NCBI RefSeq assembly: GCF_028737205.1
Contig: NZ_JAQZAL010000006.1
Span: 124,001 to 188,000, forward strand
DNA: 64,000 bases
Source: Actinomycetospora lutea
GTDB taxonomy: Bacteria; Actinomycetota; Actinomycetes; Mycobacteriales; Pseudonocardiaceae
Direction of reading: 5' to 3'
The notes below the pieces were generated by a model. The model was not told the origin of the DNA. It ran no database searches and saw only the letters and a list, made by a program, of their open reading frames with translations. Within the stretch, counting starts at the first letter, position 1; each line of letters starts with the position of its first letter. Below, piece after piece: positions 4,758 through 55,854 of this stretch. The position numbers and the translations under genes are program-made.

Positions 4758-4766
4758 GGTCGGACC

Positions 4767-5983: not shown

Positions 5984-5987
5984 AGGC

Positions 5988-6014
5988 TTGGCACTCTCGG
6001 CGCTAGAGTGCCAA
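5988..6014. promoter_or_regulatory. CIRCE operator (HrcA site) upstream of groES
   Basis: TTGGCACTC at 5988-5996, exactly nine spacer bases, then GAGTGCCAA at 6006-6014: a perfect 9-base inverted repeat differing from the classic CIRCE TTAGCACTC-N9-GAGTGCTAA at one base per arm. It lies 112 bases before the groES start. It is the binding site of the heat-shock repressor HrcA, so the groES-groEL operon is expected to be heat-inducible. Confidence 0.95.
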
Positions 6015-6126
6015 TCAGCACGGCGTCGGAGCCGCCCCGGCTCCCGCGACGGCGGGGCGGACCCCCGGTGCCGTGAGGACAACAGGACGCATCCGCTCCG
6101 ACTCCAGACAGGTGGAGGTCACCGAC

Positions 6127-6423
6127 GTGGCCAGCGTGAACATCAAGCCGCTCGAGGACAAGCTCGTGGTGCAGGCCAGCGAGGCCGAGACCACGACCGC
6201 TTCCGGCATCGTCATCCCGGACACGGCGAAGGAGAAGCCCCAGGAGGGCAAGGTCCTCGCCGTCGGCCCGGGCCGCGTGGACGACAACGGGAACCGCATC
6301 CCGCTGGACGTCGCCGTGGGCGACGTCGTCATCTTCTCGAAGTACGGCGGCACCGAGGTCAAGTACAACGGCGAGGACTACCTGATCCTCTCCTCGCGCG
6401 ACGTGCTGGCGGTCGTCAACTAG
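6127..6423 (+). CDS. groES: Co-chaperonin GroES
   Basis: A 98-residue Hsp10 that caps the GroEL chamber. [21 protein letters not shown] is the typical N-terminus and [15 protein letters not shown] the mobile-loop region. The GTG at 6127 is preferred over the ATG at 6073 because AGGTGGAGG lies just upstream and family proteins begin here. CIRCE lies upstream, and a strong hairpin separates it from groEL. Confidence 0.97.
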
Positions 6424-6448
6424 GACCCGCGCGCACCGCAGGACACGA

Positions 6449-6488
6449 ACGCCGCCCCGGTGGCCCCCACGGGGCGCCGGGGCGGCGT
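6449..6488. terminator. Intercistronic hairpin between groES and groEL
   Basis: Perfectly complementary 12-base arms at 6449-6460 and 6477-6488 surround a smaller GCCCC/GGGGC hairpin. It lies in the 115-base gap inside the chaperonin operon. It could attenuate read-through or set the groES:groEL transcript ratio by blocking 3' decay. No T-tract follows. Confidence 0.55.
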
Positions 6489-6538
6489 CGTTCCCCGCGT
6501 GAGCCCGTGAGGAAGACTCTGCCGGAAAGGTTGGCTCA

Positions 6539-8170
6539 GTGCCCAAACAGATCACCTTCGACGAGACCGCCCGCCGCGCGCTCGAGCGCGGGGTCGACCA
6601 GCTGGCCAATGCGGTCGTGGTGACCCTCGGGCCGCGGGGCCGTCACGTCGTCCTGGAGAAGAAGTTCGGTGGTCCGACGATCACCAACGACGGCGTCACC
6701 ATCGCCCGCGAGATCGAGCTCGACGACCCGTTCGAGAACCTCGGCGCGCAGCTGGCGAAGAACGTCGCCACGAAGACCAACGACGTCGCGGGCGACGGCA
6801 CGACGACGGCCACCGTCCTCGCGCAGGCGCTCGTGTGCGAGGGTCTGCGCAACCTCGCGGCGGGCGCCAACCCGACCGCGCTCGGGGCCGGCATGCTCGC
6901 CGCCACTGAGAAGGTCACCGAGATCCTGCGGTCGAAGGCCACCCCGGTGGACGGCCGCCAGGGCATCGCCGCCGTCGGTGCGGTCGCCTCGCGCGACCAG
7001 ACGATCGGCGACCTCATCGGCGAGGCCATGGAGAAGGTCGGCGAGGACGGCGTCATCACGGTCGAGGAGGCCTCGACGCTGGCCACCGAGCTGGAGATCA
7101 CCGAGGGTCTGCAGTTCGACAAGGGCTACATCTCGCCCTACTTCGTCACCGACAACGACTCGATGGAGGCCGTGCTCGAGGACGCCCAGATCCTCCTGCA
7201 CCGCGAGAAGATCAGCTCCATCCAGGACCTGCTCCCGCTGCTGGAGAAGGTCGTGGAGTCGGGCAAGCCGCTGCTGATCGTCGCCGAGGACGTCGAGGCC
7301 GAGGCCCTGTCGACCCTCGTCGTCAACTCGATCCGCAAGACGGTGAAGGTGGCCGCGGTCAAGGCGCCGTTCTTCGGCGACCGCCGCAAGGCGTTCCTCG
7401 ACGACCTCGCGGCCGCCACCGGCGCCACGGTGGTCAACCCCGAGGTCGGCATCAAGCTCGCCGAGTCGGGCCCCGAGGTGCTCGGCAGCGCGCGCCGCGC
7501 CGTGATCACCAAGGACGCCACCACCCTCGTCGAGGGCGGCGGGCGCCGGGAGGACGTGGACGCCCGCGTCACCCAGATCCGGCGTGAGATCGAGGAGACC
7601 GACTCCGACTGGGACCGCGAGAAGCTGCAGGAGCGGCTGGCGAAGCTCGCCGGCGGCGTCGCGGTCATCAAGGTCGGTGCGGCCACCGAGACCGAGATGA
7701 AGGAGCGCAAGCACCGCATCGAGGACGCCATCGCCGCCACCCGCGCGGCGGTGGAGGAGGGCATCGTCCCCGGCGGCGGCAGCGCGCTGCTGCACGCCGC
7801 GGCGGAGCTCGCCGACGGCCTCGGCCGCACCGGCGACGAGGCCACCGGGGTGGCCCTCGTGCGCCGCGCGCTCGCGGCGCCGCTCAAGGCGATCGCCCAC
7901 AACGCCGGGCTCGAGGGTGCCGTCGTCACGGCCCGGGTCGCCGAGTCGGGCTGGGGCCACGGGTACGACGCCGCGGCCGAGGAGTACGGCGACCTCATGG
8001 CCGCCGGCATCATCGACCCGGTGAAGGTGACGCGCTCCGCCCTGGAGAACGCCACCTCCATCGCCCGCATGGTGCTCACCACGGAGAGCGCCATCGTGGA
8101 CAAGCCCGAGGAGGAGGAGCCGGCGGGCGCCGCCGGTGGCCACGGGCACGGCCACGGCCACGGTCACTAG
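6539..8170 (+). CDS. groEL1: Chaperonin GroEL, His-tailed GroEL1 type
   Basis: A 543-residue Hsp60. [15 protein letters not shown] carries the ATP-binding/catalytic Asp, and [23 protein letters not shown] belongs to the apical domain. The C-terminus is [13 protein letters not shown] instead of the Gly-Gly-Met tail, the hallmark of the actinobacterial GroEL1 found beside groES; a second, GGM-tailed GroEL2 is expected elsewhere in such genomes. The start is GTG with [18 protein letters not shown]. The histidine tail can bind metal ions in relatives. Confidence 0.96.
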
Positions 8171-8183
8171 TCCGCACGACAGA

Positions 8184-8220
8184 ACGACGGGCCCCCGGCC
8201 GCCGGCCGGGGGCCCGTCGT
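8184..8220. terminator. Bidirectional terminator between groEL1 and whiB
   Basis: Perfect 17-base arms at 8184-8200 and 8204-8220 with a 3-base loop. It begins 13 bases after the groEL1 stop and ends 19 bases before the end of the convergent whiB gene, so it can serve both. Confidence 0.88.
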
Positions 8221-8239
8221 CGTCCGTGGCCGTGCTGTG

Positions 8240-8530
8240 TCAGCCCAGGCGGCGGGGCCGGCCGGTGGCGGCCGCGACGCGCTCGGACTCCGACATCCCG
8301 CCCCAGATGCCGTAGGGCTCGCCGGCGGCGATCGCGTGCCGGCGGCACGGCTCGATCACCGGGCAGTCGCGGCAGACCGCCTTGGCGCGCCGCTCCCGGT
8401 GCGCCCGCGCGGGGCCCCGCTCACCGTCCGGGTGGAAGAAGAACGTGCTGTCCATGCCACGGCAGGCCCCGAGGCGCTGCCAGTCCCACACGTCAGCGTT
8501 GGGTCCCGGCAGCCGGCGGACGTCCGCCAT
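8240..8530 (-). CDS. whiB3: WhiB-family iron-sulfur transcription factor (WhiB3/WhiD type)
   Basis: A 96-residue Wbl protein, a small 4Fe-4S-binding regulator that works with the primary sigma factor. Four cysteines are visible: one in GACRGMD and three in AVCRDCPVIEPCRRHA. The turn motif PYGIWGGMSESER follows, then a basic C-terminus GRPRRLG for DNA contact. The ATG at 8530 is chosen because GGAGGTGG lies just upstream. Position beside groEL1 and before the bldM/sigD genes matches whiB3 in mycobacteria and whiD in Streptomyces, where it affects redox response or sporulation; that role is inferred here. Confidence 0.94.
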   Translation of the reverse strand: MADVRRLPGPNADVWDWQRLGACRGMDSTFFFHPDGERGPARAHRERRAKAVCRDCPVIEPCRRHAIAAGEPYGIWGGMSESERVAAATGRPRRLG

Positions 8531-9167
8531 GTGCCACCTCCACGTCGCGAGGACCCGCGGGTCCGGCTCCACGCACGCCCCGTGCGGACCGCGACCGGCT
8601 CCGCACCGCGCCGTGCACCTGCAGATGGTCACGCTGCGTGCGCTTCTCGGCGCGCACCGCGACCACCGTGGTTGGACCCTATGGCGGTTGTGCACGACCC
8701 GACAAGTACATGCGACGTGCGCCATTCCTCGATGTATTCATCGGTGAGCGGTCGCCTACATGTCGGGGTGCTTGCCGAACCGGCTCCGATCCGTGATCAT
8801 TCCCCGCACGCGGAGTACACGGGAGTGTCGCCGGACGGTCGTCATCGGTGGATCTCCGGTCGTCACCGTAGGGTCGCCCGCACGTTGAACAGGGGGAGGG
8901 TCGCCACACCGGCCGGTCGGTCCGCCGACCGGCGCCGATTCGGCCGTGGAGGGCCCTCGGCCCCATCGAGGCGTGGCACGTCCTGCGCCCGTCGTACAAG
9001 GAGAGCGCATGGACCGGCACGCCGAGCGGCCAGCCGACCGCGGACGCGAACCGGCCGGACGTCGTACCGAATTCGCTCCGGGCGGCGGGTCAAGCTCGTC
9101 GGTCGGCGCGCCGATGGGGGAGAGTGCTCGCTCATCGGCTGCAGGGTCGCTGCAGAAAGGAGCTCCC
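8531..9167. other. Intergenic control region between divergent whiB3 and bldM-like genes
   Basis: 637 bases without a confident separate gene. It is less GC-rich than its flanks, especially near 8690-8830, and must hold divergent promoters. A possible upstream start for the bldM-like gene lies at 9009, with AAGGAG at 8998-9003. A short inverted repeat CGATG-TATT-CATCG lies near 8730-8745. No RNA gene was recognised. Confidence 0.5.
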
Positions 9168-9764
9168 GTGACCACGGTGCTGATCTGCGACGACCGTCGC
9201 AGCGTCCGTGAAGGCCTCACCAGGGTGATGTCCGCGGTCCCGGGTGTCCACCGCATCGACTGCGTCGCCCACGGCGACGAACTGCTCACCCGCTTCTCGC
9301 GGCAGACGGTCGACGTCGTCCTGGTCGGCACCCAGCGCGCCGTGCCCACCGGCGTGGAGGCCACCCGGCGGCTCGTCGCCGCGCACCCGCAGGCCAACGT
9401 CATCGTCTTCGGCGCCCCCGACGACTCGGGCAGCATCGCCGCCGCCATCGCCGGCGGGGCCCGCGGCTACCTGCGCTGGGACGCGTCCCGCCCCGAGCTC
9501 GTCGCCGCGCTCGCCCACACGCTGGCCAGCACCTCGGTGCCGGCGCCGCGCACCCCCGCCGACTCGGGTGTCCAGCTCACCGAGCGGGAGCTGCAGGTGC
9601 TGCGCGGGATGGCGCAGGGCAAGAGCAACGGCCAGATCGGCCGGGAGCTCTACCTGTCCGAGGACACGGTGAAGACCCACGCCCGGCGCCTGTTCCGCAA
9701 GCTCGGCGTCCGCGACCGTGCGCAGGCCGTGGCGCACGGCTTCCGACGGGGCCTGGTCTCCTGA
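9168..9764 (+). CDS. bldM: BldM-like atypical response regulator, LuxR-type DNA-binding
   Basis: A 198-residue regulator: receiver domain about 1-115 and LuxR helix-turn-helix about 135-190 (LTERELQVLRGMAQGKSNGQ, then LSEDTVKTHARRLFRKLGV). The HTH end and synteny (groEL1-whiD-bldM-sigD-guaB) match Streptomyces BldM, which controls development. The receiver keeps the acidic pair Asp8-Asp9, but the phosphoacceptor position is Gly54 (VVLVGTQR) and the conserved Lys is Trp104 (GYLRWDAS), so normal phosphorylation is unlikely. Two in-frame starts each have a strong ribosome site: GTG 9168 (AAAGGAG) and ATG 9009 (AAGGAG); the longer form adds 53 low-complexity residues. The short form is annotated because homologues start there. 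Confidence 0.85.
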   Translation: MTTVLICDDRRSVREGLTRVMSAVPGVHRIDCVAHGDELLTRFSRQTVDVVLVGTQRAVPTGVEATRRLVAAHPQANVIVFGAPDDSGSIAAAIAGGARGYLRWDASRPELVAALAHTLASTSVPAPRTPADSGVQLTERELQVLRGMAQGKSNGQIGRELYLSEDTVKTHARRLFRKLGVRDRAQAVAHGFRRGLVS

Positions 9765-43288: not shown

Positions 43289-44620
43289 TCACCCCGTGCG
43301 TCCGGCGACCCCTGCGGTGGTCAGTTCGGTGTCCGGGACGTAGAGCCGCGGCGCCGCGAGCCCGCTGACGACGGTGACCAGGGCGATGCCGACGAGCAGG
43401 AGGCCCGGCGCCCAGGAGGCCCCGCCGGCCGCGGCGAGGACCGCGGTCGCGGCCAGGGGCACGAACCCGGACGCGATCCCGGCCAGGTTGGCGGCGAGCG
43501 CGATGCCGCTGTAGCGCACGCGGGCCGGGAAGAGCCGGGCCAGGAGGTCGCCCGAGACGGCGTAGGGGATCGAGAGCGCCGCCACGCCGAGCGTGACCCC
43601 GAAGATCACGGCGACGGCGTTGCGCGTGTCGAGCAACCAGAACATCGGCAGCGCGACGAGGGCGGACGCGACGCCGCCGACCACCGTCACCCGCGCGGAC
43701 CCGAACCGTTCCGCGAGCCGGCCGCCCAGCACGAGCACGCCGATCTCCACGACGGCGGCGACGAGCGTGGCCCCCAGCGCCAGCGGTCGCGGGAGGTCGA
43801 GGTCGCCGGTGGCGTAGCTGATGACGAACGTGGTGGCGAGGTAGAAGCCGCCGACCCCGAGGAACGCCGACCCCGCACCGACGAGCAGCGCCGGCCACGC
43901 GTGCGCCACGACGTCGCGCACGGGCGCCGAGGCGCGCGCGTCCTCGGCGAGCAGGCGGTCGAACAGCGGCGACTCCTCGACCCGGCGGCGCAACCACAGG
44001 GCCACGCCGAGCAGGGGGAACGCCGCGAGGAAGGGCAGGCGCCAGCCCCAGGTGTCGAAGTCCTCGGGCGGCAGCAGCGCGACCAGCAGGAACGCCCCGG
44101 ACGACAGCAGCGTGCCGACCGGCGACCCGATCTGGGGCATCGCGGCGTAGCGCCCGCGCTTGCCCGGCGGGGCGTGCTCGACGGCGAGGGTGATCGCCCC
44201 GCCCCACTCGCCGCCGACCGCGACGCCCTGCAGCAGCCGCAGCAGGGTGAGCAGCACCGGCGCGGCGACCCCGATGTCGGCGAAGCCCGGCAGCACGCCG
44301 ATGAGCCCGGTGACCGCGCCGATCATCACCACCGTGATCAGCAGGCACGCGCGGCGGCCGACGCGGTCGCCGAGGTGGCCGAACACGATCCCGCCGAGCG
44401 GGCGGGCGGCGAACCCGACCGCGAACGACGCGAACGCGGCGAGGGTCGCGACGACGGGGTCGCCGGTCGTGAAGAACAGGCGGTTGAACACCAGCGACGC
44501 GGCGGTGCCGTAGAGGAAGAAGTCGTACCACTCGAGCGCGGTGCCGACGAACGCCCCGACGGCCACGCGGCGGGCGTCGGCCTCGGTGGGGATGGAGCTC
44601 GGTTGCGGTGCAGTGCTCAT
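43289..44620 (-). CDS. MHS-family MFS transporter
   Basis: A 443-residue, 12-span transporter of the metabolite:H+ symporter group (shikimate, 2-oxoglutarate, proline/betaine relatives). GTALEWYDFFLYGTAASLVF at the first span and FGHLGDRVGRRACLL in loop 2-3 are diagnostic; LLQGVAVGGEWGGAITLAVE lies in span 4. The start overlaps the amidohydrolase stop by 4 bases, making it the last gene of the urease-like operon. It probably imports the operon's substrate. Confidence 0.92.
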   Translation of the reverse strand: MSTAPQPSSIPTEADARRVAVGAFVGTALEWYDFFLYGTAASLVFNRLFFTTGDPVVATLAAFASFAVGFAARPLGGIVFGHLGDRVGRRACLLITVVMIGAVTGLIGVLPGFADIGVAAPVLLTLLRLLQGVAVGGEWGGAITLAVEHAPPGKRGRYAAMPQIGSPVGTLLSSGAFLLVALLPPEDFDTWGWRLPFLAAFPLLGVALWLRRRVEESPLFDRLLAEDARASAPVRDVVAHAWPALLVGAGSAFLGVGGFYLATTFVISYATGDLDLPRPLALGATLVAAVVEIGVLVLGGRLAERFGSARVTVVGGVASALVALPMFWLLDTRNAVAVIFGVTLGVAALSIPYAVSGDLLARLFPARVRYSGIALAANLAGIASGFVPLAATAVLAAAGGASWAPGLLLVGIALVTVVSGLAAPRLYVPDTELTTAGVAGRTG

Positions 44621-46290
44621 TGTGTGTCTCCGTCGGGCGGCAGGCCCAGGACGTCCGCGCCGTGGGTGGCGCGCCCGTCCCGGAGGGTGGCGACGACCTC
44701 GATGTCGCCGATGCGGTCGGGATCGGTGCGGGTGGGGTCGTCGCCGAGGACGACGAGGTCGGCGGCGAAGCCGGGGGCCAGGCGCCCGCGGGCGTCCTCG
44801 TCGCCGGCCACCCACGCGGCGTCGACGGTGGAGGCGCGCAGGGCGGTCGCGGCGTCGACGGCCTCGTCGGCGCCGAGCGTGCACCCGGCCGCCGTGCGCC
44901 GCTGCACCATCGACCGCATCCCGCGCAGGGGGTGGCCGTCGGCGACGCACGGCCGGTCCGAGCTGGCGGGCACGCGCAGCCCGGCCCGCAGGAACGACGC
45001 GTGGCGGTAGAGCCGGTCGACGCGCTCGTCGCCGACGGCGGCGGCCATCGAGTCCCCGATCTCGAACAGGAACCGGGCCTGGGGGACGGGGGTGACGCCC
45101 AGGGCGGCCATCCGCGCCAGCGCGGCGTCGTCGACGACCCCGGCGTGCTCGAGGCGGTGCCGCGGCGGGCGGACACCGGGCCAGGGCCGGCGGGCCGTCT
45201 CCTCGAACGCGTCGAGCGCGGCGTCGACCGCGCGGTCGCCGATGGCGTGCGCGGCGACCGACCACCCGCCGGCGACGGCCCCGACGAGGGCGTGCCGCAG
45301 GGCGTCGGGATCGTCGCCGAGGTAGCCGGCGTGGTCCCGGTCGGCGTAGGGCTCGCGCATCGCGGCGGTCCGCGAGCTCAGGGCGCCGTCGAAGAAGATC
45401 TTCATGGGGCCGACGCGGAGGTGCCGGTCGCCGAGCCCCGGGCGCAGGCCCAGATCGAGGCCGCGTCCCGGCCCGCCGGCGGTGTCGTGCAGGACGGAGG
45501 TCTCGGGCATGAGGTCGACGCGCACCGCGAGGTCCCCGCGCTCGCGGGCGAGCTGGTAGGCGGCGAGCTCGCGCGGGGAGCGCCCGATCCAGCCGCCGCC
45601 GATGCCGGCCTCGGTGACGTGCGTGATGCCCTGCCGGGCGAACACCGCGGTGGCCGCGGCGATCGCGTCGGCCAGGTCCTCGACGGAGTACGGCCGCAGC
45701 AGGTCGCCCGCCAGGGCCTGGGCGGCCTCGAGGAGGACGCCGGTCGGGTCGCCGGCCTCGTCGCGCACCACGACGCCCCCCGCGGGGACGACCGCCTCCC
45801 CGTCCAGCACCCCGGCCCGCCGCAGCACCTCGCTGGACACCGCGCAGACGTGCGCGGACCGGTGCTTGAGCCACACCGGGCGCCCGCCGCCGGCGCGGTC
45901 GAGCGCCCGCCGGTCCGGGGAGCCGCCCAGCGCGACGTCGTCGTAGCCGCTGCCGACGACGAACGCGTCGGCCGCCAGCTCGGCGGCCCGCGCCGCGACG
46001 GCGTCGTACACGGCGTCGAGGTCGCGCAGCCCGCCCAGCGGGATCTCGGCGAGCGACTGCCCGAACCAGGCGGTGTGCTGGTGGGCGTCGTCGAACCCGG
46101 GCACCACGGTGGCCCCGCCGGCGTCGACGACGCGGCGGGCGCGGACCCCGGCCGGCAGCTCGTCGTCGTCCAGCACGGCCAGGACGTGGCCGTGGTGCAC
46201 GGCCACGGCACGGCCCCGTGGGCGCGCGTCGTCGAGGGTCAGGACGTCGGCGTCGCGCAGCAGCAGGTCGATCTCCACGATGGTCCTCAC
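44617..46290 (-). CDS. YtcJ-like amidohydrolase family protein
   Basis: A 557-residue metal-dependent hydrolase of the amidohydrolase superfamily. VVPGFDDAHQHTAWFGQSL has the HxH-type metal motif, GPMKIFFDGALSSRTAAM the middle lysine/aspartate region, AAHAIGDRAVDAALDAFE a metal His, and VASSDRPC-like sequence (RVPASSDRPCVADGHPLRG) the final Asp. The group hydrolyses C-N bonds in formamides, hydantoin-like or amide substrates. GTG 46290 overlaps the ureC stop by 4 bases. Probable partner enzyme of the divergent urease. Confidence 0.88.
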   Translation of the reverse strand: MRTIVEIDLLLRDADVLTLDDARPRGRAVAVHHGHVLAVLDDDELPAGVRARRVVDAGGATVVPGFDDAHQHTAWFGQSLAEIPLGGLRDLDAVYDAVAARAAELAADAFVVGSGYDDVALGGSPDRRALDRAGGGRPVWLKHRSAHVCAVSSEVLRRAGVLDGEAVVPAGGVVVRDEAGDPTGVLLEAAQALAGDLLRPYSVEDLADAIAAATAVFARQGITHVTEAGIGGGWIGRSPRELAAYQLARERGDLAVRVDLMPETSVLHDTAGGPGRGLDLGLRPGLGDRHLRVGPMKIFFDGALSSRTAAMREPYADRDHAGYLGDDPDALRHALVGAVAGGWSVAAHAIGDRAVDAALDAFEETARRPWPGVRPPRHRLEHAGVVDDAALARMAALGVTPVPQARFLFEIGDSMAAAVGDERVDRLYRHASFLRAGLRVPASSDRPCVADGHPLRGMRSMVQRRTAAGCTLGADEAVDAATALRASTVDAAWVAGDEDARGRLAPGFAADLVVLGDDPTRTDPDRIGDIEVVATLRDGRATHGADVLGLPPDGDTQ

Positions 46291-47975
46291 CCCAGGTGGT
46301 GCAGGCGGGTCAGGGGCAGGTCGGCAGCGTGGTGCAGCGGCACCTCGCGGCCGTCGATCCGCACCGGTGCCGGCTCGCCGGGGATCTCGACGTGCGGCGT
46401 CGCGGTGTTGAACAGCATGTCGGCCGACCCGAGGCCCCGGCTCCCGGCCACGGGCGTGTAGCGCGGCCCGGAGGGCAGGGCGGCGCGGGCCGCGGGGTCG
46501 TCCAGGCACGCCGCGGCGACGAACTGGTGCGCGAGACGGGCCGGCGCGCCGCCGCGCGCCCCGTGGAAGCCGCGCATCCGGCGGGGCTGCGTGAGCCGGG
46601 TCGACCCCGATCCCGACCCGGCCGCCCCCCAGGCGACGAACCCCGACTTGATCACCAGCTCGGGGGTCGCGCCGAACCACGCCGGCGACCACAGCACGAT
46701 GTCGGCGATCCGCCCGGCCCGCAGCGAGCCCACGTGGCCGGCGAGACCGTGCGCGACCGCCGGGTTGTGCGTGAGCTTGGCCAGGTAGCGCAGCACCCGG
46801 GCGTTGTTCGCGACGTCGGGGCCGGTCTCGCCGGCGAGGTGGGCCTGCACGTGGGCGAGCTGCCAGGTGCGGCGCACGGTCTCGCCGATGCGGCCCATGC
46901 CCAGCGCGTCGGAGTTGACGATCGCGATGGCGCCGTCGTCGTGCAGCCGGTTCTCCGCGGCGATGGCGTGCTCGCGGATGCGGCTCGCGGCGATGCTGCG
47001 GTCGCTGGGCAGGTCGGGGTGCCCGCGGTGCACGGTCATCGTCATCGGTCCCAGCTCGCGCACCGTCGCCGCGGTCAGCGGGAGCGTGGGCGTCGTGGAG
47101 GACGTCAGCACGGAGTCGAGCCCGACGATGCGCAGCAGGTCGGGGTGCCCGCCGCCGCCCTCGACGTGGTAGGCGTGCACCGTGCGTCCGCCGATCGCGT
47201 CGAGCGTGTCGTCGAGGTAGCCCGACTCGTTCAGGGTGTCGGTGTGCAGGGCGACGGGCAGGTCGGCCCGGTCGGCGACGCCGAGGCAGGTGTCGACGGC
47301 GTCCGGGCCGGCGCCCCAGTCCTCGTGGACCTTGAACCCGCCGGCCCCGGCGAGCACCGCCCGCTCGAGCAGCTCCGCCGAGCCGGACGAGCCGCGGGCG
47401 AGGAACGCGGCGTTCACCGGCGCGCCGGTCCAGGAGGCCATCAGCGTGTGCAGGTTGGGCGCCGGGTTGGCGCCGACGTCCCAGACACCGCCGATGCCCA
47501 TGCCGACCAGCGTCGTCACCCCGGTGGACAGGGCCACCGGCGCCAGGTCGGCGTTCGAGAGGTGCACGTGGGAGTCCACGGCGCCGGGCGTCGCGAGGAG
47601 GCCCTCGCCCGGCACCATCGCCGTGTGGGCGTCGACGACGAGCTCGACGCCGTCCTGCACGTCGGGGTTCCCGGCACGGCCCACGCCCACGATCCGCCCG
47701 TCCTTGACCCCGATCGACGTCTTCCGGATGCCGAGCACGGGGTCGAGCAGCAGGACCCCGAGCACGACGAGGTCGAGGGCGCTGTCCCGGGGTGCGCGGT
47801 CGGCGACGAGCGCGCCCTGGCGGGCGGTCTTGCCGCAGCCGCCGAGCATCTCCTCGCCCGGTTCGGTGTCGTCGGCGGTGACCTCGACCCAGAGGTCGGT
47901 GTCGCCGAGGCGCACGCGGTCGCCGGTGGTGGGGCCGTAGAGGCGGGTGTACTCGGCGCGGTCCATGGCGGTCAT
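46287..47975 (-). CDS. ureC: Divergent urease alpha subunit (UreC-like)
   Basis: A 562-residue nickel urease alpha homologue. MDRAEYTRLYGPTTGDRVRL is the standard opening; metal ligands are present: DSHVHL, the carbamylated Lys and a His in GFKVHEDWG, VALHTDTLNESGY, HAYHVEGGGGHPD and the Asp in NSDALGMGR, plus the SRIR arginine. The mobile flap differs: the usual CHHL is replaced by VHRGH, losing the Cys. The strand after the first HxH also differs from ordinary ureases. The ATG at 47975 overlaps the ureAB stop. No ureDEFG accessory genes are in the window. True urea hydrolysis or a related amide activity cannot be distinguished. Confidence 0.9.
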   Translation of the reverse strand: MTAMDRAEYTRLYGPTTGDRVRLGDTDLWVEVTADDTEPGEEMLGGCGKTARQGALVADRAPRDSALDLVVLGVLLLDPVLGIRKTSIGVKDGRIVGVGRAGNPDVQDGVELVVDAHTAMVPGEGLLATPGAVDSHVHLSNADLAPVALSTGVTTLVGMGIGGVWDVGANPAPNLHTLMASWTGAPVNAAFLARGSSGSAELLERAVLAGAGGFKVHEDWGAGPDAVDTCLGVADRADLPVALHTDTLNESGYLDDTLDAIGGRTVHAYHVEGGGGHPDLLRIVGLDSVLTSSTTPTLPLTAATVRELGPMTMTVHRGHPDLPSDRSIAASRIREHAIAAENRLHDDGAIAIVNSDALGMGRIGETVRRTWQLAHVQAHLAGETGPDVANNARVLRYLAKLTHNPAVAHGLAGHVGSLRAGRIADIVLWSPAWFGATPELVIKSGFVAWGAAGSGSGSTRLTQPRRMRGFHGARGGAPARLAHQFVAAACLDDPAARAALPSGPRYTPVAGSRGLGSADMLFNTATPHVEIPGEPAPVRIDGREVPLHHAADLPLTRLHHLG

Positions 47976-48562
47976 CGCGAGGCACCTCCGAGTCGGACCG
48001 CGCTCGCCGCCCGCGTCGCCCCGACCTCGACGCGCACGGCGGTGCCCGCGGCGAGGTCGAGGCGCAGGTGCGCGGGGTCGGTGCCGTCGGCGACGTCCAC
48101 CCGCAGCCGGCGGTTGAGCCGGTCGAGCGGGACGTGCGAGCTCACCCAGACCGCCTGGTCGCCGTCGTTGCACAGCACGACGTCGTGGCGGTCGCGGCCC
48201 GGCGCGAGCTCGATCGTCCCGGTCGCGGGGCGCACGGCACCGGGAGCGTCGGCCTCCGGCGGGCCGAACGGGCGGTCGACGTGCACGAGCGTCGTGCCGT
48301 GCGGGAAGAGCGCCTCGACCTGCAGCGACGGCACGGCGGCGGTGACGCCGTCGACGAGCTGGTCGGGGGTGACGACCTCGCGGGCGCGGCGCACCACGTC
48401 GTCGAGGTCGTGGCCGTCCCAGGCCAGCTCGCAGATCTCGTCGCAGACCAGCGCCACCGCCTCGGCGGCCCCCAGCACGGCATGGCGCGCCAGACGCCGG
48501 CGCGCGAGCTCGGCCGCGCTGTGCAGCAGCACTCTCTCCTGCTCGCGCGGGGTGAGGTGCAC
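47972..48562 (-). CDS. Fused urease gamma-beta subunit (UreA-UreB), divergent
   Basis: A 196-residue protein. The N-terminal about 100 residues are UreA-like (MHLTPREQERVLLHSAAELA, AEAVALVCDEICELAWDG); the rest is UreB-like (TIELAPGRDRHDVVLCNDGD, WVSSHVPLDRLNRRLRVDV, LDLAAGTAVRVEVG). The UreB His-rich HYHFFEVN motif is absent. Gene fusion resembles Helicobacter UreA, but this protein is shorter. It is the first gene of the operon, starting with GTG, 100 bases from the divergent PucR gene. Confidence 0.86.
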   Translation of the reverse strand: MHLTPREQERVLLHSAAELARRRLARHAVLGAAEAVALVCDEICELAWDGHDLDDVVRRAREVVTPDQLVDGVTAAVPSLQVEALFPHGTTLVHVDRPFGPPEADAPGAVRPATGTIELAPGRDRHDVVLCNDGDQAVWVSSHVPLDRLNRRLRVDVADGTDPAHLRLDLAAGTAVRVEVGATRAASAVRLGGASR

Positions 48563-48662: not shown

Positions 48663-49808
48663 GTGCACAATTGGGAGGACCTCGTGGCGCGGGTCGGCGA
48701 CGACACCGACGCGCTGCGGACGGCGTTCCTGCGCCGGCTGCGCGACGTCCCCGCGTACGCCCGCGGCCTGGTGCCCGCCGCGCGCCTCGAGGCCGACGCC
48801 GACGAGACGTTCGCCTACCTGCTCGGGCGCCTCGCCGGGCGTGCGGTGCCCGACCGGCTGGTCGCGGTGGGGCCGGCGATCGGCCGCGACCGGGCCCGGC
48901 GCGGCGTGCCGCTCGACGATCTGCTCACCGCGGTCCGCCAGGACTTCCGGGTGCTGTGGGAGGCGTTCCGGGCCCGCGCCGACCCGGACGAGGCCGCGCT
49001 GCTCGTGGACCACGTGCAGACCGTGTGGTCGGTGGTCGAGGAGTACTCCACGCGCATCCGGGTCGCCTACCAGGAGGAGCAGGCGATCCTGGCCCGGGAG
49101 CGCCAGGGCGAGCGGACCGCGCTCGTCGCCGCCCTGCTCGCGGCCGACGACCCCGCGCCCGAGGACGTGACCCGGGTGGCGATCGCGCTGCAGGTGGCGG
49201 AGGACGCCGACGTCCTGGTCGTCGCGGCGGCGGGCGAGGACGGCGCGGCGCTGCGGCGGGCGGCCGACCGGTTCGCCGGCGACGGCCGGCCCGTCCACGT
49301 GCAGCCCACCGGCCGGCACAGCGTGCTGCTCGCGCGGTGGGACGGGCCGGAGGGCGCGCCGGTGCGCGCGGCGCTCGAGGGGGTGCGCTGCGGGGTGGGC
49401 CCGACGGCGCACGGGCTCGCCGACGTCCCGCGCAGCGCGCGGCTGGCCGCGGAGCTCGCCGACGTCACCGCGGGCGGCCCCGTCGTACCGCGGACCCTCG
49501 CCTCGGTCTGGCTCCCGCTCGCGGCCGCGCGCCTCGGGGACGTCCGCGCGGACCTGGTGACCGCCGAGCTCGGCGGCCTCGCGGACGTGACGCCCGCGGA
49601 GCGGGAGCGCCTGGTGGCGACGGTGCGGCGGTTCGCCGTGGACGGCTCGGTGCGGGACACCGCGGCGGCGCTCTACTGCCACCGCAACACGGTGCTCAAC
49701 CGCCTGCGGCGCGTCGCCGAGCTCACCGGACGCGACGTCACCGTGCCGGCCGACGCCGCGGTCCTGCTGCTGGCGCTGGCGAGCGATCGTGGCGGCCCTG
49801 ACGTCTGA
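48663..49808 (+). CDS. PucR/CdaR-type transcriptional regulator
   Basis: A 381-residue regulator with the C-terminal PucR helix-turn-helix at about 325-370: VRDTAAALYCHRNTVLNRLR then VAELTGRD. The N-terminal about 1-150 is a helical RsbRD-like sensor region and the middle a GGDEF-like CdaR fold. PucR proteins often control purine or nitrogen-compound use. It faces the ureAB operon across 100 bases, so it is the probable regulator. Start is GTG. Confidence 0.88.
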   Translation: MHNWEDLVARVGDDTDALRTAFLRRLRDVPAYARGLVPAARLEADADETFAYLLGRLAGRAVPDRLVAVGPAIGRDRARRGVPLDDLLTAVRQDFRVLWEAFRARADPDEAALLVDHVQTVWSVVEEYSTRIRVAYQEEQAILARERQGERTALVAALLAADDPAPEDVTRVAIALQVAEDADVLVVAAAGEDGAALRRAADRFAGDGRPVHVQPTGRHSVLLARWDGPEGAPVRAALEGVRCGVGPTAHGLADVPRSARLAAELADVTAGGPVVPRTLASVWLPLAAARLGDVRADLVTAELGGLADVTPAERERLVATVRRFAVDGSVRDTAAALYCHRNTVLNRLRRVAELTGRDVTVPADAAVLLLALASDRGGPDV

Positions 49809-49916: not shown

Positions 49917-50645
49917 CTACGCCAGGAGCGGGGCCAGTTCGGCGGCGTGGTCGCGCAGGAGGTCGATGAGTTCGGCGTTCGGGGCCGCGACGCGGTCGGC
50001 GGGCCCGGTGAGCGCGAGGCCCGCGACGAGGCGCCCGTCGCCCGGCGCGCGGATGGCCACGGCGAGGCAGCCCAGGGCGGCGTGGAACTCCCCGCACTGG
50101 CGGGCGACGCCCGACTCGCGCACCTCGGCGAGCAGCGTGCGCAGGCGCTCCGGGTCGACGGTGGTGTGCGGGGTCAGGCGGGCCAGGGGGCCGTCGGGGA
50201 GGTCGTGCTCGGCGAGCAGGAGGCGCCCGAGACCGGTCGCGTGCGGGTGGCGGGAGAGCTCGTCGGCGTCGGTCGGGGGGTGGTCGGGGTCCGGGTCGAG
50301 GAACTGCAGGCGGTGGCGGTCGAACGCGACGAGATGCGCGCCCCAGCGCACGCGCTCGCGCAGGCGGCGCATCACCGTGCGCGCGGCGGTGGGCGTGGCG
50401 AGGGGGAGCGGGGCGAGGTTGGCGCTGCGCCGGCCGAGGGCGAAGCCGCCCAGGTCGGGCAGGCGCACGAGGTACTCCTCGGCGACCAGCAGGTTGAGCA
50501 GCCGGTAGGTCGTGGCGGGCGGGATGCGCAGCGCGGTCGAGATCTCCTTGGCGGTGATCCCGACGCCGGCGGCCGCGACCTCCTCGAGGATGAGCAGCGC
50601 GCTGCGCACCGCCTGGGGCTGGCGACCGCTGATCGGCGAGGTCAC
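49917..50645 (-). CDS. IclR-family transcriptional regulator
   Basis: A 242-residue regulator. The winged helix-turn-helix is AVRSALLILEEVAAAGVGIT then ISTALRIPPATTYRLLNLLV (about 12-60); the effector domain follows with HATGLGRLLLAEH and CLAVAIRAPGDGRLVAGLAL. The GTG at 50645 overlaps the APC permease stop by 4 bases. It probably controls its permease and the divergent permease/amine oxidase operon; inverted repeats at 52177-52297 are candidate operators. Confidence 0.9.
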   Translation of the reverse strand: MTSPISGRQPQAVRSALLILEEVAAAGVGITAKEISTALRIPPATTYRLLNLLVAEEYLVRLPDLGGFALGRRSANLAPLPLATPTAARTVMRRLRERVRWGAHLVAFDRHRLQFLDPDPDHPPTDADELSRHPHATGLGRLLLAEHDLPDGPLARLTPHTTVDPERLRTLLAEVRESGVARQCGEFHAALGCLAVAIRAPGDGRLVAGLALTGPADRVAAPNAELIDLLRDHAAELAPLLA

Positions 50646-52120
50646 CGCGGCGGTGCGGACGTCGGGGCGCCGAGGACGTCGGCGGTGGTGGTCTCGTCGT
50701 AGACACCCATGCCGCGCAGGGCGGCGGCGCGGCGGACCCGGAGCACGAGCCACCCGCCGGCCCCGACGGCGACGAGCGCGGCGACGGTGATCAGGAGCCC
50801 GGTGCCGGCGTTCGCCAGCACCACGACCAGGATCGCGACGAGCGCCGCCGACGCGAGCACCGCGGCCACCACGATGCCGCGGGTCAGCTCGCCGATCCGG
50901 GCCAGGAAGCGGGGCGCGGCGACGCACACGAGCAGGTAGGCGGCGAGGAAGCCCAGGGTCGCCACCGACACCAGCGCGCCGAAGACCGTCGCGGGCGGCA
51001 CCCCGGCGAGGGTGCCGACGACCACCACGGCGGCGATGACGGGCACGGCGACCGTGACCGCGACCGCGGGCGTGAGGTGGCGCCGGTGGGTCCGCCCCAG
51101 CACCGCGGGCGCCACGCCCTCGCGGGCCAGCGAGAACAGCACGCGCACCAGCGTGTTCAGCGCCGCCAGCGCGCACGCGCCGAAGGAGGCGACGATCCCG
51201 AGGTCCATGAGCACCGACGCCCAGCTGAGGTCGTCGACCCCGCCCACGCCGGTCGGCGGGCTCGTGGCCCCCTCGGTGGCGCCGGGGGCGGCGAGGACCA
51301 CGAGGGTCGCCACCAGGTAGAGCACCGCGGTGACGCCGGCCGTCGCGAGGATCGCGCGGGGCACCGACGCGAACGGCCGCCGCGCCTCCACGCCCAGCGA
51401 GGCGGCGCTGTCGAACCCGATGAACGCCGCGAGCGCCGGGAGCACGCCGACGGCCACACCGCCGACACCGCCGACACCGCCGACCCCGCCGCCCGCACCG
51501 CCGCCGACCGGTGGGGCCGGCACGGTCGGGGCCGTCGTGAGGGCGAGCGCGACGAGCACCACCAGGATGAGGCCGATCGAGGCCGCCTCGATCACGAGCA
51601 TGACGCGCCCGGCCAGCCGCACCCCGCGGATCGCGCACACCGCGGCGGTGATCGCCAGGGCGACGACGAGCACCACGCCGGTGCCGGCGGCGACCGCGCC
51701 GGTGTCGGCGGCGGGGCCCGAGAGCAGGCGCGCGAGCAGGGCGCCGCCGTACCAGGACGCCCCGGAGAGCGCGACGGCGACGAGCACCCCGTAGCCGACG
51801 ATCATCGCCACCGCGCACGCGTAGGCGCCGCCGGCCCCGAGCCCCTTGGCGGTGAAGCTGTACAGGCCGCCGGCCGCGGCCATCCGCCGCGCGAACGCCG
51901 TGATGCACGCAGCGACCAGCCCGACCACCACCGCGGCGATCGCGAACGACCACGGGGCCCCGCTGCCCGCGACGGCGATGACGAGCAGGGGCGTCGAGGC
52001 CATCGCGCCGGCCGGGGCCGTCGTCGCCACCGACTGCGCGAACACCCCGAGCGGACGCAGCGCGCGACGGTGCAGGCCGGCGACGGGCGAGCGCGAGCGC
52101 AGCCCGGGAATGCGCGCCAT
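50642..52120 (-). CDS. APC-superfamily amino acid/amine permease
   Basis: A 492-residue, roughly 12-span transporter. VFAQSVATTAPAGAMASTPL is the first-span APC motif, GGLYSFTAKGLGAGGAYACA follows in loop 2-3, and AFIGFDSAASLGVEARRPFA is the conserved span-6 region. A Gly-rich loop (GGGAGGGVGGVGGVGGVAVG) near residue 270 is unusual. ATG 52120 is chosen; GTG 52138 is also possible and neither has a clear ribosome site. Co-transcribed with an IclR gene. Substrate probably an amine or amino acid, from context. Confidence 0.86.
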   Translation of the reverse strand: MARIPGLRSRSPVAGLHRRALRPLGVFAQSVATTAPAGAMASTPLLVIAVAGSGAPWSFAIAAVVVGLVAACITAFARRMAAAGGLYSFTAKGLGAGGAYACAVAMIVGYGVLVAVALSGASWYGGALLARLLSGPAADTGAVAAGTGVVLVVALAITAAVCAIRGVRLAGRVMLVIEAASIGLILVVLVALALTTAPTVPAPPVGGGAGGGVGGVGGVGGVAVGVLPALAAFIGFDSAASLGVEARRPFASVPRAILATAGVTAVLYLVATLVVLAAPGATEGATSPPTGVGGVDDLSWASVLMDLGIVASFGACALAALNTLVRVLFSLAREGVAPAVLGRTHRRHLTPAVAVTVAVPVIAAVVVVGTLAGVPPATVFGALVSVATLGFLAAYLLVCVAAPRFLARIGELTRGIVVAAVLASAALVAILVVVLANAGTGLLITVAALVAVGAGGWLVLRVRRAAALRGMGVYDETTTADVLGAPTSAPPR

Positions 52121-52176
52121 GCGTGCCACGACCGACACCGTAGAGCCCGGAGGCCGTCGCGCGAAGGACCGGAGAA

Positions 52177-52297
52177 GGGCCGAACGAGAATCGGGCACGA
52201 GCCATTCTCGTTCGGCCCGCGGAAACGATGCACCGTTCTCCGTTCGGAGAATCCCGCAGGTGGGGGCGCGGCGCACCGAGAATGCGGATCTCATTCT
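52177..52297. promoter_or_regulatory. Three inverted repeats between divergent APC permeases
   Basis: IR1: perfect 15-base arms at 52177-52191 and 52204-52218, ending in AGAAT/ATTCT. IR2: TTCTCCG-TT-CGGAGAA at 52236-52251, perfect. IR3: AGAATG-N7-CATTCT at 52279-52297. Centres are about 45 bases apart. IR1 and IR3 share AGAAT...ATTCT, and IR2 has the same elements in the opposite order, suggesting cooperative binding by one regulator, perhaps the IclR protein. Confidence 0.65.
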
Positions 52298-52401
52298 GCC
52301 TCGCGCAGCTCAACGAGGGGTTGACCCCGCGGGAACGGCTCCGCAAACGTGACCCGCGACATTTCCTCGGTCCCCTCCACCGTTCCTCTCCGGGAGTCGC
52401 C

Positions 52402-53874
52402 ATGGCTGCACCCGCCGAATCCGCCGCGCCGGCATCCCGTCTCTCCGGCACCCTCGGCGTGGGTTCGATCGTCTTCATGGTCATCGCCGCTGCGGCGCCG
52501 CTGACCGTCATCGCCGGCACCATCCCCCTGGGCGTCGGCGCCGGGAACGGCGCCGCGTTCCCGATGACCTTCGTGCTCTGCGCCGTCGTGCTGCTGCTGT
52601 TCGCGGTCGGGTTCTGCGCCATGAGCCCGCACGTCCCCGACGCCGGCGCCTTCTTCACCTACATCCGCCACGGCCTGGGCCGCCCCCTCGGGCTCGGCGC
52701 CGCGTTCCTCGCCCTCGCCACCTACACCGCGGTCCAGGCCGCGGTCTACGGCTACATCGGCGCGGCGATCGACGAGCTCGTCGCGAGCCTCGGCGGCCCG
52801 AGCGTGCCCTGGTGGGTCTGGACGCTCGCCGTCGTCGCGATCGTCGGCGTGCTCGGCTACCGCCACATCGAGCTCTCGAGCCGCGTGCTGGGTGTGCTGC
52901 TGCTGGCCGAGATCGCCATCGTGCTGGTGCTCGACGTCGTCGTCTTCGCCAGCGGCGGCGGCCCCGGCGGCCTGTCCACCGCGCTGTTCGATCCCGCGCA
53001 GGTGATCTCCGGCGAGGTCGGCATCGCGATCATGTTCGCGATCGCGAGCTTCATCGGCTTCGAGGCCACCGCGGTGTTCCGCGACGAGGCCCGCGACCCG
53101 CAGCGCACGATCCCGCGCGCCACCTACCTCGCGCTCGTCGTCGTCGGCGTCTTCTACGCGGTGTCGACCTGGGCGATCGTCTCGGCCTGGGGCGACGAGG
53201 CCGCCGTCACCGAGTCGGCCGCGAACCCGGCCACGTTCCTGCTCACCACGGTGACGAACTGGCTCGGCCCGACCGGCGGGCTCATCGTCACGATCCTGCT
53301 GGTCACGAGCCTCTTCGCCGCGATCCTCGCGTTCCACAACGTGGCCGCGCGCTACTGGTACGCGCTCGGCGGGCACGGCGCCTTCCCCGGTGCGGTCGCC
53401 CGCACCCACACCCGGCACGGCTCGCCGCACATCGCGTCGCTGGCGCAAACGATCCTCGCCGCGCTGCTCGTCATCGTGTTCGCGCTCGCCGGGCTCGACC
53501 CCGTCGCCCAGGTCTTCGCCTGGATGGCCGGCACCGCGACGCTCGGCGTCCTCGTCCTCATGGTGCTCACCTGCGTGGCCGTGCTCGCCTTCTTCGCCCG
53601 CAGCCGCGTCGACCGGCGGGTGTGGCACACCCGCATCGCCCCGGCCCTGGGCCTCGTCGGCCTGCTGGTCTGCCTCGTGCTGACCATCCGCAACTTCCCG
53701 ACCCTCATCGGCGGCTCGACCGGCCTCGCGCTCGCGATCGGTGCCGTCCTCGTCGTCGTCTTCCTCGCGGGCGTCGTCGTCGCCCTGGTCCGGCCCGCGG
53801 TGTCCGGCTTGTCCGGAACCGATTCCGTGACTCCCGGCGGTGTCCACGGCGACACTCCCCGCGAGAACGTCTAG
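52402..53874 (+). CDS. APC-superfamily permease upstream of amine oxidase
   Basis: A 490-residue, 12-span transporter. SIVFMVIAAAAPLTVIAGTI is span 1, GAFFTYIRHGLGRPLGLGAA is the substrate-side loop, and ASFIGFEATAVFRDEARDPQ is the span-6 motif. The ATG at 52402 has GGGAG upstream. It lies 45 bases before a copper amine oxidase gene in the same direction, so it likely imports the amine that enzyme oxidises. It is divergent from a second APC permease. Confidence 0.88.
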   Translation: MAAPAESAAPASRLSGTLGVGSIVFMVIAAAAPLTVIAGTIPLGVGAGNGAAFPMTFVLCAVVLLLFAVGFCAMSPHVPDAGAFFTYIRHGLGRPLGLGAAFLALATYTAVQAAVYGYIGAAIDELVASLGGPSVPWWVWTLAVVAIVGVLGYRHIELSSRVLGVLLLAEIAIVLVLDVVVFASGGGPGGLSTALFDPAQVISGEVGIAIMFAIASFIGFEATAVFRDEARDPQRTIPRATYLALVVVGVFYAVSTWAIVSAWGDEAAVTESAANPATFLLTTVTNWLGPTGGLIVTILLVTSLFAAILAFHNVAARYWYALGGHGAFPGAVARTHTRHGSPHIASLAQTILAALLVIVFALAGLDPVAQVFAWMAGTATLGVLVLMVLTCVAVLAFFARSRVDRRVWHTRIAPALGLVGLLVCLVLTIRNFPTLIGGSTGLALAIGAVLVVVFLAGVVVALVRPAVSGLSGTDSVTPGGVHGDTPRENV

Positions 53875-53919
53875 CCAGCGACCCGTCCCGACATCGCCCC
53901 CGACAGGAGGTCTGCCCGC

Positions 53920-55854
53920 ATGACCGCCACCGCACCCGCGAACGTCGACACCGGCGCCGCCACCCATCCCCTCGACCTGGCCACCGCCGACGAGTTCCGC
54001 GCGGTCCGTGAGGTGCTCGACGAGGCCGGCCTGCTCGGCGACGCCGTGCGCTACTGCTTCGCCGGGCTCGAGGAGCCGGACAAGGCCACCGTCCTCGCCC
54101 ACACCGACGGCGACCGGGTCGACCGGCGCTTCCGCGTCCTGCTGCTCGACATGAGCGGGGCGCCCTCGCGCGACGTCGTCGTCTCCGCGTCCCGCCGCGA
54201 GATCGACTCGGCGACCGAGCTCGACCCGGCCACGAGCGGCCAGCTCCCGATCATCGACTCCGAGTTCGAGATCATGGAGGAGATCGTCCTGGCGTCCCAG
54301 GAGTGGTGCGACGCGTTGCGCCGCCGCGACATCGACCCCGCCACGGTGCGGGCCGTGCCGCTCTCGGCGGGCGCGTACTACCCGGAGGAGTCGGGCCGCC
54401 GCATGGCGCGGGTGCTCGGGTTCCGCCAGGACCACGAGAAGGACTCGCCCTGGGCCCACCCGGTGGACGGCGTCGTCGCCTACGTCGACCTGACCCGCCG
54501 CGAGGTCACCCGCGTGATCGACCACGCACCGCTGCCGGTGCCCGACGAGCCCGGCAACTTCGACGACCCCGAGCAGGTCGGGCCGCAGCGCACCACCCTC
54601 AAGCCGATCGAGATCACCCAGCCCGAGGGCGTGAGCTTCCGCCTCGAGGGCAACCGGCTGCGCTGGGAGGGCTGGGACCTGCGCGTCGGCTTCAACGAGC
54701 GCGAGGGCCTGACCCTGCACCAGATCGGCATCCACGGTCGCCCGGTGGTCTACCGGGCCTCGATCGCCGAGATGGTCGTGCCCTACGCCGACCCGTCGCC
54801 GGTGCGGTTCTGGCAGAACTACTTCGACGCCGGCGAGTACATGTTCGCCCGCTACGCCAACTCCCTCGAGCTCGGCTGCGACTGCCTCGGCGAGATCCGG
54901 TACATGGACGTCGTCGTGGCCGACGACGACGGGTCGCCGCGCACGATCACGAACGCGATCTGCCTGCACGAGGAGGACTACGGCATCCTCTGGAAGCACT
55001 CCGACCTGTTCACCAACGCGTCGGAGACCCGTCGCCAGCGCCGCATGGTGATCTCGTTCTTCACCACCATCGGCAACTACGACTACGGCTTCTACTGGTA
55101 CCTCTACCTCGACGGCACGATCGCGTGCGAGTCGAAGCTGACCGGCATCCCGTTCACCTCGGCCTACCCGTCCGAGGGGCACCCGTTCGCCACGCCGGTG
55201 GCGCCGGGCCTCGGGCTGCCCTACCACCAGCACCTGTTCTCGGCCCGCCTCGACATGGCCGTCGACGGCACCCGCAACGTCGTCGAGGAGTGCGAGGCCG
55301 TCGCGCTGCCGGTGGGCGACGACAACCCCTGGGGCAACGCCTTCACCGAGTCCCGCACGCGGCTGACCCGCGAGGCCGACGCCCGGCGGGTCGCCGACCC
55401 GGGCCGCGGGCGCACGTGGCAGGTGGTCAACCCGGGGTCGACCAACCGGCACGGCCGGCCGGTGGCCTACGCCCTGCACGCCGAGGGCAGCCCCACGCTG
55501 CTCGCCGACGACAGCTCGGTCGTCGCCGGACGCGCCGCCTTCGCCACGAAGCACCTCTGGGTCACCGCGTACGACGCCGACGAGCGCTACCCCGCGGGTG
55601 ACTACGTCAACCAGCACGCCGGCGGGGCGGGCCTGCCGACCTGGACCGCGGCCGACCGGTCGCTCGACGAGGGCGGGCAGGGCGCCGACGTCGTCCTGTG
55701 GCACACGTTCGGCCTGACGCACGTGCCGCGCCCGGAGGACTGGCCGATCATGCCCGTCGACTACGCCGGCTTCCGGCTGATGCCCGTCGGGTTCTTCGAC
55801 CGCAACCCCACGCTGGACGTGCCGCCGTCGTCGAACGGGCACTGCCACAGCTGA
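53920..55854 (+). CDS. Copper-containing primary-amine oxidase
   Basis: A 644-residue enzyme that oxidises primary amines to aldehydes, releasing ammonia and hydrogen peroxide. The tyrosine that becomes the TPQ cofactor is Tyr387 in TTIGNYDYGFYW. Copper ligands are HQH in GLPYHQHLFSARLD and the His of FGLTHVPRPEDWPIMP. YFDAGEYMFARYANSLELGC contains the catalytic-base Asp region. No signal peptide, so it should be cytoplasmic. The ATG follows AGGAGG-like sequence (ACAGGAGG). Substrate (for example tyramine, phenethylamine or histamine) is not decided. Confidence 0.96.
   Translation: MTATAPANVDTGAATHPLDLATADEFRAVREVLDEAGLLGDAVRYCFAGLEEPDKATVLAHTDGDRVDRRFRVLLLDMSGAPSRDVVVSASRREIDSATELDPATSGQLPIIDSEFEIMEEIVLASQEWCDALRRRDIDPATVRAVPLSAGAYYPEESGRRMARVLGFRQDHEKDSPWAHPVDGVVAYVDLTRREVTRVIDHAPLPVPDEPGNFDDPEQVGPQRTTLKPIEITQPEGVSFRLEGNRLRWEGWDLRVGFNEREGLTLHQIGIHGRPVVYRASIAEMVVPYADPSPVRFWQNYFDAGEYMFARYANSLELGCDCLGEIRYMDVVVADDDGSPRTITNAICLHEEDYGILWKHSDLFTNASETRRQRRMVISFFTTIGNYDYGFYWYLYLDGTIACESKLTGIPFTSAYPSEGHPFATPVAPGLGLPYHQHLFSARLDMAVDGTRNVVEECEAVALPVGDDNPWGNAFTESRTRLTREADARRVADPGRGRTWQVVNPGSTNRHGRPVAYALHAEGSPTLLADDSSVVAGRAAFATKHLWVTAYDADERYPAGDYVNQHAGGAGLPTWTAADRSLDEGGQGADVVLWHTFGLTHVPRPEDWPIMPVDYAGFRLMPVGFFDRNPTLDVPPSSNGHCHS

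Follow-up and report, generated by a model that had tools for sequence, protein, structure and literature searches.

We found that a 64,000-nucleotide stretch of the Actinomycetospora lutea genome (contig NZ_JAQZAL010000006.1, positions 124,001 to 188,000; hereafter the window) encodes a urease-like catalytic subunit, UreC, that is placed outside the canonical ureases and among a set of actinobacterial 'VH-flap' lineages. Urease is the textbook case of an enzyme committed to a single substrate and a single metal and reliant on its own assembly line. Comparison of sequences and gene neighbourhoods leads us to propose, tentatively, that the window enzyme is a VH-flap urease that applies urease-like chemistry to a mono-substituted urea (an amine or amino acid carrying an N-carbamoyl group, H2N-CO-NH-R), a reading that we regard as plausible rather than secure. 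The two subunit genes, and the parts of them on which the argument turns, are as follows:

47972..48562, minus strand: UreAB-like fused gamma and beta subunit (GTG start, 196 aa)
48113..48142, minus strand: UreB loop SSHVPLDRLN, with Pro at the second His of the canonical HxH
46287..47975, minus strand: UreC-like catalytic subunit (562 aa; Urease_alpha 1.8e-38, Amidohydro_1 1.6e-43)
47454..47504, minus strand: UreC pocket loop 158–174 (GMGIGGVWDVGANP...), 17 residues
47139..47168, minus strand: UreC H270–D279 stretch HVEGGGGHPD, two residues fewer than the canonical H.EGAGGGHAPD
47025..47033, minus strand: UreC flap V315-H316-R317, Cys replaced by Val and catalytic His retained

Placement and active site of the window UreC

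An earlier note on this DNA, made from its letters alone, had suggested a urease-fold enzyme specialised for a substrate other than urea, and had named in advance a phylogeny of UreC against canonical ureases as one analysis that could refute this. In a tree built from 61 of 112 UreC rows, the window included, a 100/100 branch separated 27 canonical rows from six phyla from all 34 VH rows, which comprised 21 of the window subclade, its closest outgroup L083, three of a group that we call f17 and nine of a Streptomyces type. Because the tree is unrooted, the VH lineages may form either a clade or a grade. The window UreC scored 546.7 against the curated urease equivalog TIGR01792, under its cut-off of 680, and passed the subfamily model NF009686 (652 against a cut-off of 354). 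Since every source-given name among the best 120 homologues listed is 'urease subunit alpha', many soil actinobacteria are probably credited with urea use too readily.

All of the nickel and carbamate ligands that the note had recognised (H136, H138, the carbamylatable K215, H244, H270 and D356; urease ligands as listed in parts of PMC3816311 and PMC7547064) are kept in 53 of 53 rows of the window subclade, and the catalytic set is also intact in the remaining 18 VH rows. The note had read the mobile-flap CHHL as replaced by VHRGH. The Cys is lost and what follows the His is changed, but the catalytic His316 itself is kept, in all 53 subclade rows, and a flap His is found in all 109 aligned rows. 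The flap Cys position holds Val throughout the subclade (53/53) and the other VH lineages (14/14, 1/1 and 3/3); in the 38 canonical rows it is Cys in 36, Thr in one and Ala in one, the last two being the otherwise canonical UreC of L068 and L074 (Mycobacterium and Micrococcus metagenome-assembled genome, MAG). The flap Cys is not essential for urease, judging by C319 variants.

The pocket around these residues is changed as well. The pocket loop has 17 residues in the window UreC and 20–21 in 36 of the 38 canonical rows, and its Trp165 is present in 53/53 subclade rows. A structure model built from a diverse alignment reached a predicted local distance difference test (pLDDT) of 84.9 with the pocket loop at low confidence, so the orientation of Trp165 was left aside; a first model from 25 close relatives was discarded (pLDDT 51.9). 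The H270–D279 stretch is 10 residues long in 53/53 subclade rows and 12 in all 38 canonical rows and the other VH lineages. In UreB, which the note had correctly described as lacking HYHFFEVN, 48 of 50 subclade rows follow an SHxP pattern (two were unmatched by it) and 37 of 37 canonical rows read SHxH. A Val-His flap, Gly359 and a shortened pocket loop occur together in 71/71 VH rows, as against no Val and one Gly in the 38 canonical rows; the VH-flap group was defined on those 71 rows, so this match is a description and no independent test. C47, in a GGCGKT motif (47835–47837, minus strand), is found in 50/53 subclade rows (three gaps) and in L083, and its position is Gly in 37/38 canonical rows.

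The fusion of UreA and UreB was borne out by Pfam matches to both PF00547 Urease_gamma (3.7e-27) and PF00699 Urease_beta (6.9e-14), with a score under the cut-off for the bifunctional gamma/beta family NF009671 (163.6 bits, cut-off 243). Identity of the window UreC to its counterparts in A. cinnamomea and A. succinea is 95%. Compared with six Actinomycetospora relatives, the ratio of non-synonymous to synonymous substitution (dN/dS) is 0.10–0.13 for UreC and 0.21–0.34 for UreAB; against L014 and L009 it is 0.26 for UreC, and for UreAB 0.67 (L014) and 0.45 (L009). A protein without the flap Cys and the HxH motif of UreB might be a catalytically inactive or regulatory relic, but purifying selection, catalytic residues that are invariant in 53/53 rows and a conserved operon make this very improbable.

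Accessory proteins and operon partners

The earlier note had seen no ureDEFG near the operon. A search of the whole host genome (6.53 Mb in 106 contigs, 96.3% complete) returned no match for UreD, UreF or UreG, UreE not having been searched, and a second canonical ureABC, which the note had proposed looking for, was absent: this assembly holds a single UreC. We then surveyed UreD and UreC in the genomes of 50 of the 53 subclade loci, leaving out L037, L047 and L052 as fragments. UreD occurred in 27 of the 50, each of which also carries a canonical-scoring UreC of at least 168 bits to PF00449, and none of the 23 genomes without UreD (seven of them MAGs) has a UreC above 144 bits. Extra UreC matches in UreD-less genomes are a second VH-type copy of the Streptomyces type (G024 and G025), neighbouring partial segments (G042) or a 24.5-bit partial match (G037). 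The complete chromosome of Streptomyces sp. SCUT-3 (G025) encodes two UreC, both VH-type, and neither UreD nor a UreG that passes the cut-off. UreG passed its cut-off in 8 of 32 selected genomes, those eight all being UreD carriers, with weaker, sub-cut-off matches in eight more. In a family sample of 297 genomes (another survey covered 396), the subclade was found in 26; as counted by eye, UreD is accompanied by two or more UreC in 17 of these, and the other nine have a single UreC and no UreD. The simplest reading of this co-occurrence is that the subclade proteins do not need UreD.

UreAB and UreC are followed by two further genes and face a regulator:

44617..46290, minus strand: YtcJ-like amidohydrolase (Amidohydro_3, PF07969 6.5e-81), probable GTG start
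43289..44620, minus strand: MHS-family MFS transporter (TIGR00883 metabolite/H+ symporter, 367 bits, under the cut-off of 443)
48663..49808, plus strand: PucR-type regulator (PF13556 9.1e-16, GGDEF_2), divergent, 100 bp from UreAB

This arrangement is as the note had described it. UreAB/UreC and YtcJ/MHS overlap by four bases (ATGA), and UreC/YtcJ by GTGA provided that YtcJ begins at the GTG at 46290. At a match threshold of 120 bits (60 for UreAB in subclade loci), the 53 subclade loci contain matches to the window's UreAB in 50, MHS in 40, YtcJ in 39 and PucR in 29, counts that are depressed by contig ends and the threshold itself. The 27 canonical loci contain no YtcJ or PucR match and one 36% MHS match. 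A promoter and terminator scan and an Rfam search gave nothing useful, and no repeat was found in the PucR–UreAB gap.

These data bear on a serious rival, that the protein is a genuine urease, acting on urea, which assembles without the known accessory proteins, as has been reported for Bacillus subtilis, or with another metal, for which the Helicobacter mustelae iron urease is a precedent (described in part of PMC3919588). We consider it unlikely: the pocket loop, the H270–D279 stretch and the UreB loop are altered and near-fixed in the subclade, the operon includes YtcJ, MHS and PucR, and retention alongside a canonical-scoring UreC in 27/50 genomes suggests a different job.

Slightly less probable still is that the enzyme hydrolyses a different class of amide, for example a cyclic ureide, hydantoin, N-acyl or ureido acid, as part of purine- or pyrimidine-like catabolism, with YtcJ cleaving before or after it. 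The PucR regulator and carboxylate-type MHS transporter would suit such a role. So would a permease of PF02133 (cytosine/purine/uracil/allantoin class) adjacent to L112, a locus of the Streptomyces type, and the structural neighbours of UreC, the nearest of which, once ureases are set aside, are dihydroorotases, hydantoinases and allantoinase. YtcJ relatives that appear in portions of two papers, an epsilon-lysine acylase (PMC10699109) and a bile salt hydrolase and formamide deformylase (PMC13081902), all YtcJ-family/PF07969 enzymes, cleave N-acyl amines rather than ureas; the close solved relatives of the window YtcJ are uncharacterised. The flap His specific to ureases, retained along with the complete ligand set, instead points to a carbamoyl substrate, and no ring-opening enzyme was recognised among the 13 subclade-locus neighbours scanned, a small part of all.

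Other neighbours did not converge on a single pathway. A thiamine pyrophosphate (TPP)-dependent enzyme, above the NF006052 cut-off in the three scored, sits beside the divergent urease, or beside the MHS gene of its operon, in four subclade loci (L010, L023, L039 and L042), class II aldolases occur in L012 and class-III aminotransferases in L040 and L053. The last (Modestobacter, 1016–9564) is the most divergent subclade member, at 58% identity, and is bordered by a pair of dissimilar YtcJ-type amidohydrolases as well as its aminotransferase. In the window, the PucR gene is adjoined at 49917–55854 by an IclR regulator, two amino acid permeases and a copper amine oxidase, a set matched in six loci, all Actinomycetospora, that could import and oxidise an amine product.

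Agmatine-deiminase-like genes in sister lineages

The sister lineages narrow the candidate substrate. The label 'Streptomyces type' rests on 85–93% UreC identity to the copies in Streptomyces G024 and G025. In 14 of 14 motif-checked copies of this type, an agmatine-deiminase-like PF04371 gene follows on the same strand, 25–141 bases downstream. The same arrangement occurs in a fifteenth copy, not motif-checked (G335); the deiminase is likewise downstream in G024 and G025, and in G057 it adjoins UreAB. Of five same-genus genomes without this UreC, four have no PF04371, and the fifth has it at a contig end with its neighbour cut off. L122, the locus of L083, contains, besides UreC and UreAB, a PotA-like ABC transporter that scores under its cut-off, a solute-binding protein, an amidase, an aminotransferase, a YtcJ homologue and, 7 kb away on the opposite strand, the deiminase with an AguB-like nitrilase next to it. 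The f17 group (L087, L093 and L106), a VH-flap lineage with a pocket loop seven residues shorter (TAGF...EEP), has a PotA-like ABC transporter after one member and an agmatine-deiminase-like gene beside one. Agmatine deiminase yields N-carbamoylputrescine, which AguB converts to putrescine, CO2 and NH3, as described in part of PMC9397018. N-carbamoylputrescine is itself a mono-substituted urea, so the deiminase linkage of the sister lineages fits our proposal directly and, as a pattern of gene neighbourhoods, supports a substrate of that kind.

Several observations weigh against the proposal, in addition to the N-acyl amine chemistry of YtcJ relatives. YtcJ is unmatched in 14/53 subclade loci, some of them on short contigs. 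All three deiminases scored fall under the TIGR03380 cut-off of 381.8, the one of Streptomyces type among them scoring 314 bits. Searches for PF04371 and AguB in 37 selected genomes found no PF04371 in the host genome, in 10 of the 13 other subclade genomes searched or in two of the three f17 genomes. The agmatine route is therefore inapplicable to the window genome and to those ten, and agmatine is ruled out as the origin of the window enzyme's substrate. In G360 the deiminase has an AguB-like nitrilase (232 bits) for a neighbour, which means that carbamoylputrescine hydrolysis in that genome may not be the task of the VH urease. Nitrilases scoring about 255–263 bits to AguB (cut-off 410) are present in all 14 Streptomyces-type genomes and in the five same-genus genomes without this UreC, and might perform the carbamoylputrescine cleavage. 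Because such nitrilases (about 260 bits) are found whether or not the deiminase is present, the absence of AguB is a weak argument for replacement.

Proposed function and comparison with known systems

Together, these data partly support the idea of a specialised non-urea enzyme: the position outside the canonical branch, the lack of UreD, UreF and UreG, the partnership with YtcJ, MHS and PucR and the changed pocket all stand, and the substrate is only narrowed, through the deiminase of the sister lineages. Of the two outcomes that the note had set as refuting, UreC inside the canonical ureases or a full ureDEFG set just beyond the window with urea as sole substrate, neither turned up. Under our proposal, the urease-type centre would attack the carbonyl of H2N-CO-NH-R to release NH3, CO2 and an amine, as it does with urea, and the altered loops would make room for the N-substituent. 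The dinuclear metal centre may self-assemble, or may employ another metal or other chaperones. In the window, the MHS transporter would bring the compound into the cell, the PucR regulator would sense it, and YtcJ would make the ureido compound or deacylate it; our guess is that YtcJ may release an acylated ureido compound, or the product of that compound. The Streptomyces-type substrate would most likely be N-carbamoylputrescine supplied by the adjacent agmatine deiminase, and that of the window subclade a different carbamoyl compound, with YtcJ as partner instead of the deiminase. More tentatively still, VH-flap ureases may constitute a second part of the urease family with a function of its own, one of accessory-independent metallo-hydrolases of mono-substituted ureas that includes a Streptomyces N-carbamoylputrescine hydrolase and in which the window subclade, with YtcJ, degrades a further ureido compound.

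This overlooked branch probably degrades substituted ureas rather than urea, in Streptomyces likely an agmatine-derived one. If so, an accessory-free branch with the catalytic core and a changed pocket would show how dependence on an assembly line can be lost, and VH-flap ureases would offer a simple system for metal-centre assembly and a new way of opening ureido bonds. The link to agmatine in Streptomyces makes the mono-substituted-urea idea directly testable.

We found no functional study of these VH-flap proteins in the open-licence literature. A cluster of ure(AB)C only is reported for S. coelicolor and S. avermitilis in part of PMC2492869. In the available part of PMC3293853, SCO5525-5526 is listed as urea-utilising and SCO5527 among ADC-pathway homologues, with no link drawn between them there; a portion of PMC4991794 applies the name SCO5526 to a different gene. 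Streptomyces ure(AB)C of the SCO5525-5526 type shares with the window the fused AB subunit, the V-H flap, Gly359 and the 17-residue loop, and differs in its 47–48% identity and in having an agmatine-deiminase-like gene as partner rather than YtcJ, MHS and PucR; SCO5525-5526 itself would, we infer, belong to the VH-flap Streptomyces type. AguB, the N-carbamoylputrescine amidase, has in common with the Streptomyces type the proposed reaction and a place after agmatine deiminase. It is a nitrilase-fold enzyme, unrelated to UreC. The H. mustelae iron urease UreA2B2, described as a urease in the part of the source available, resembles the window proteins in its fused small subunits and fold (structural match 3qga, TM 0.91), and is likened here on those grounds and not by flap or loops. 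With the canonical nickel ureases of Klebsiella aerogenes, Sporosarcina pasteurii and Helicobacter pylori, the window enzyme shares the fold, ligands, carbamylatable Lys, flap His and alpha-beta-gamma plan at approximately 40% identity; unlike them, it has Val for Cys in the flap, shorter pocket loops, a changed UreB loop and no UreD, UreF or UreG, and it lies outside their branch.
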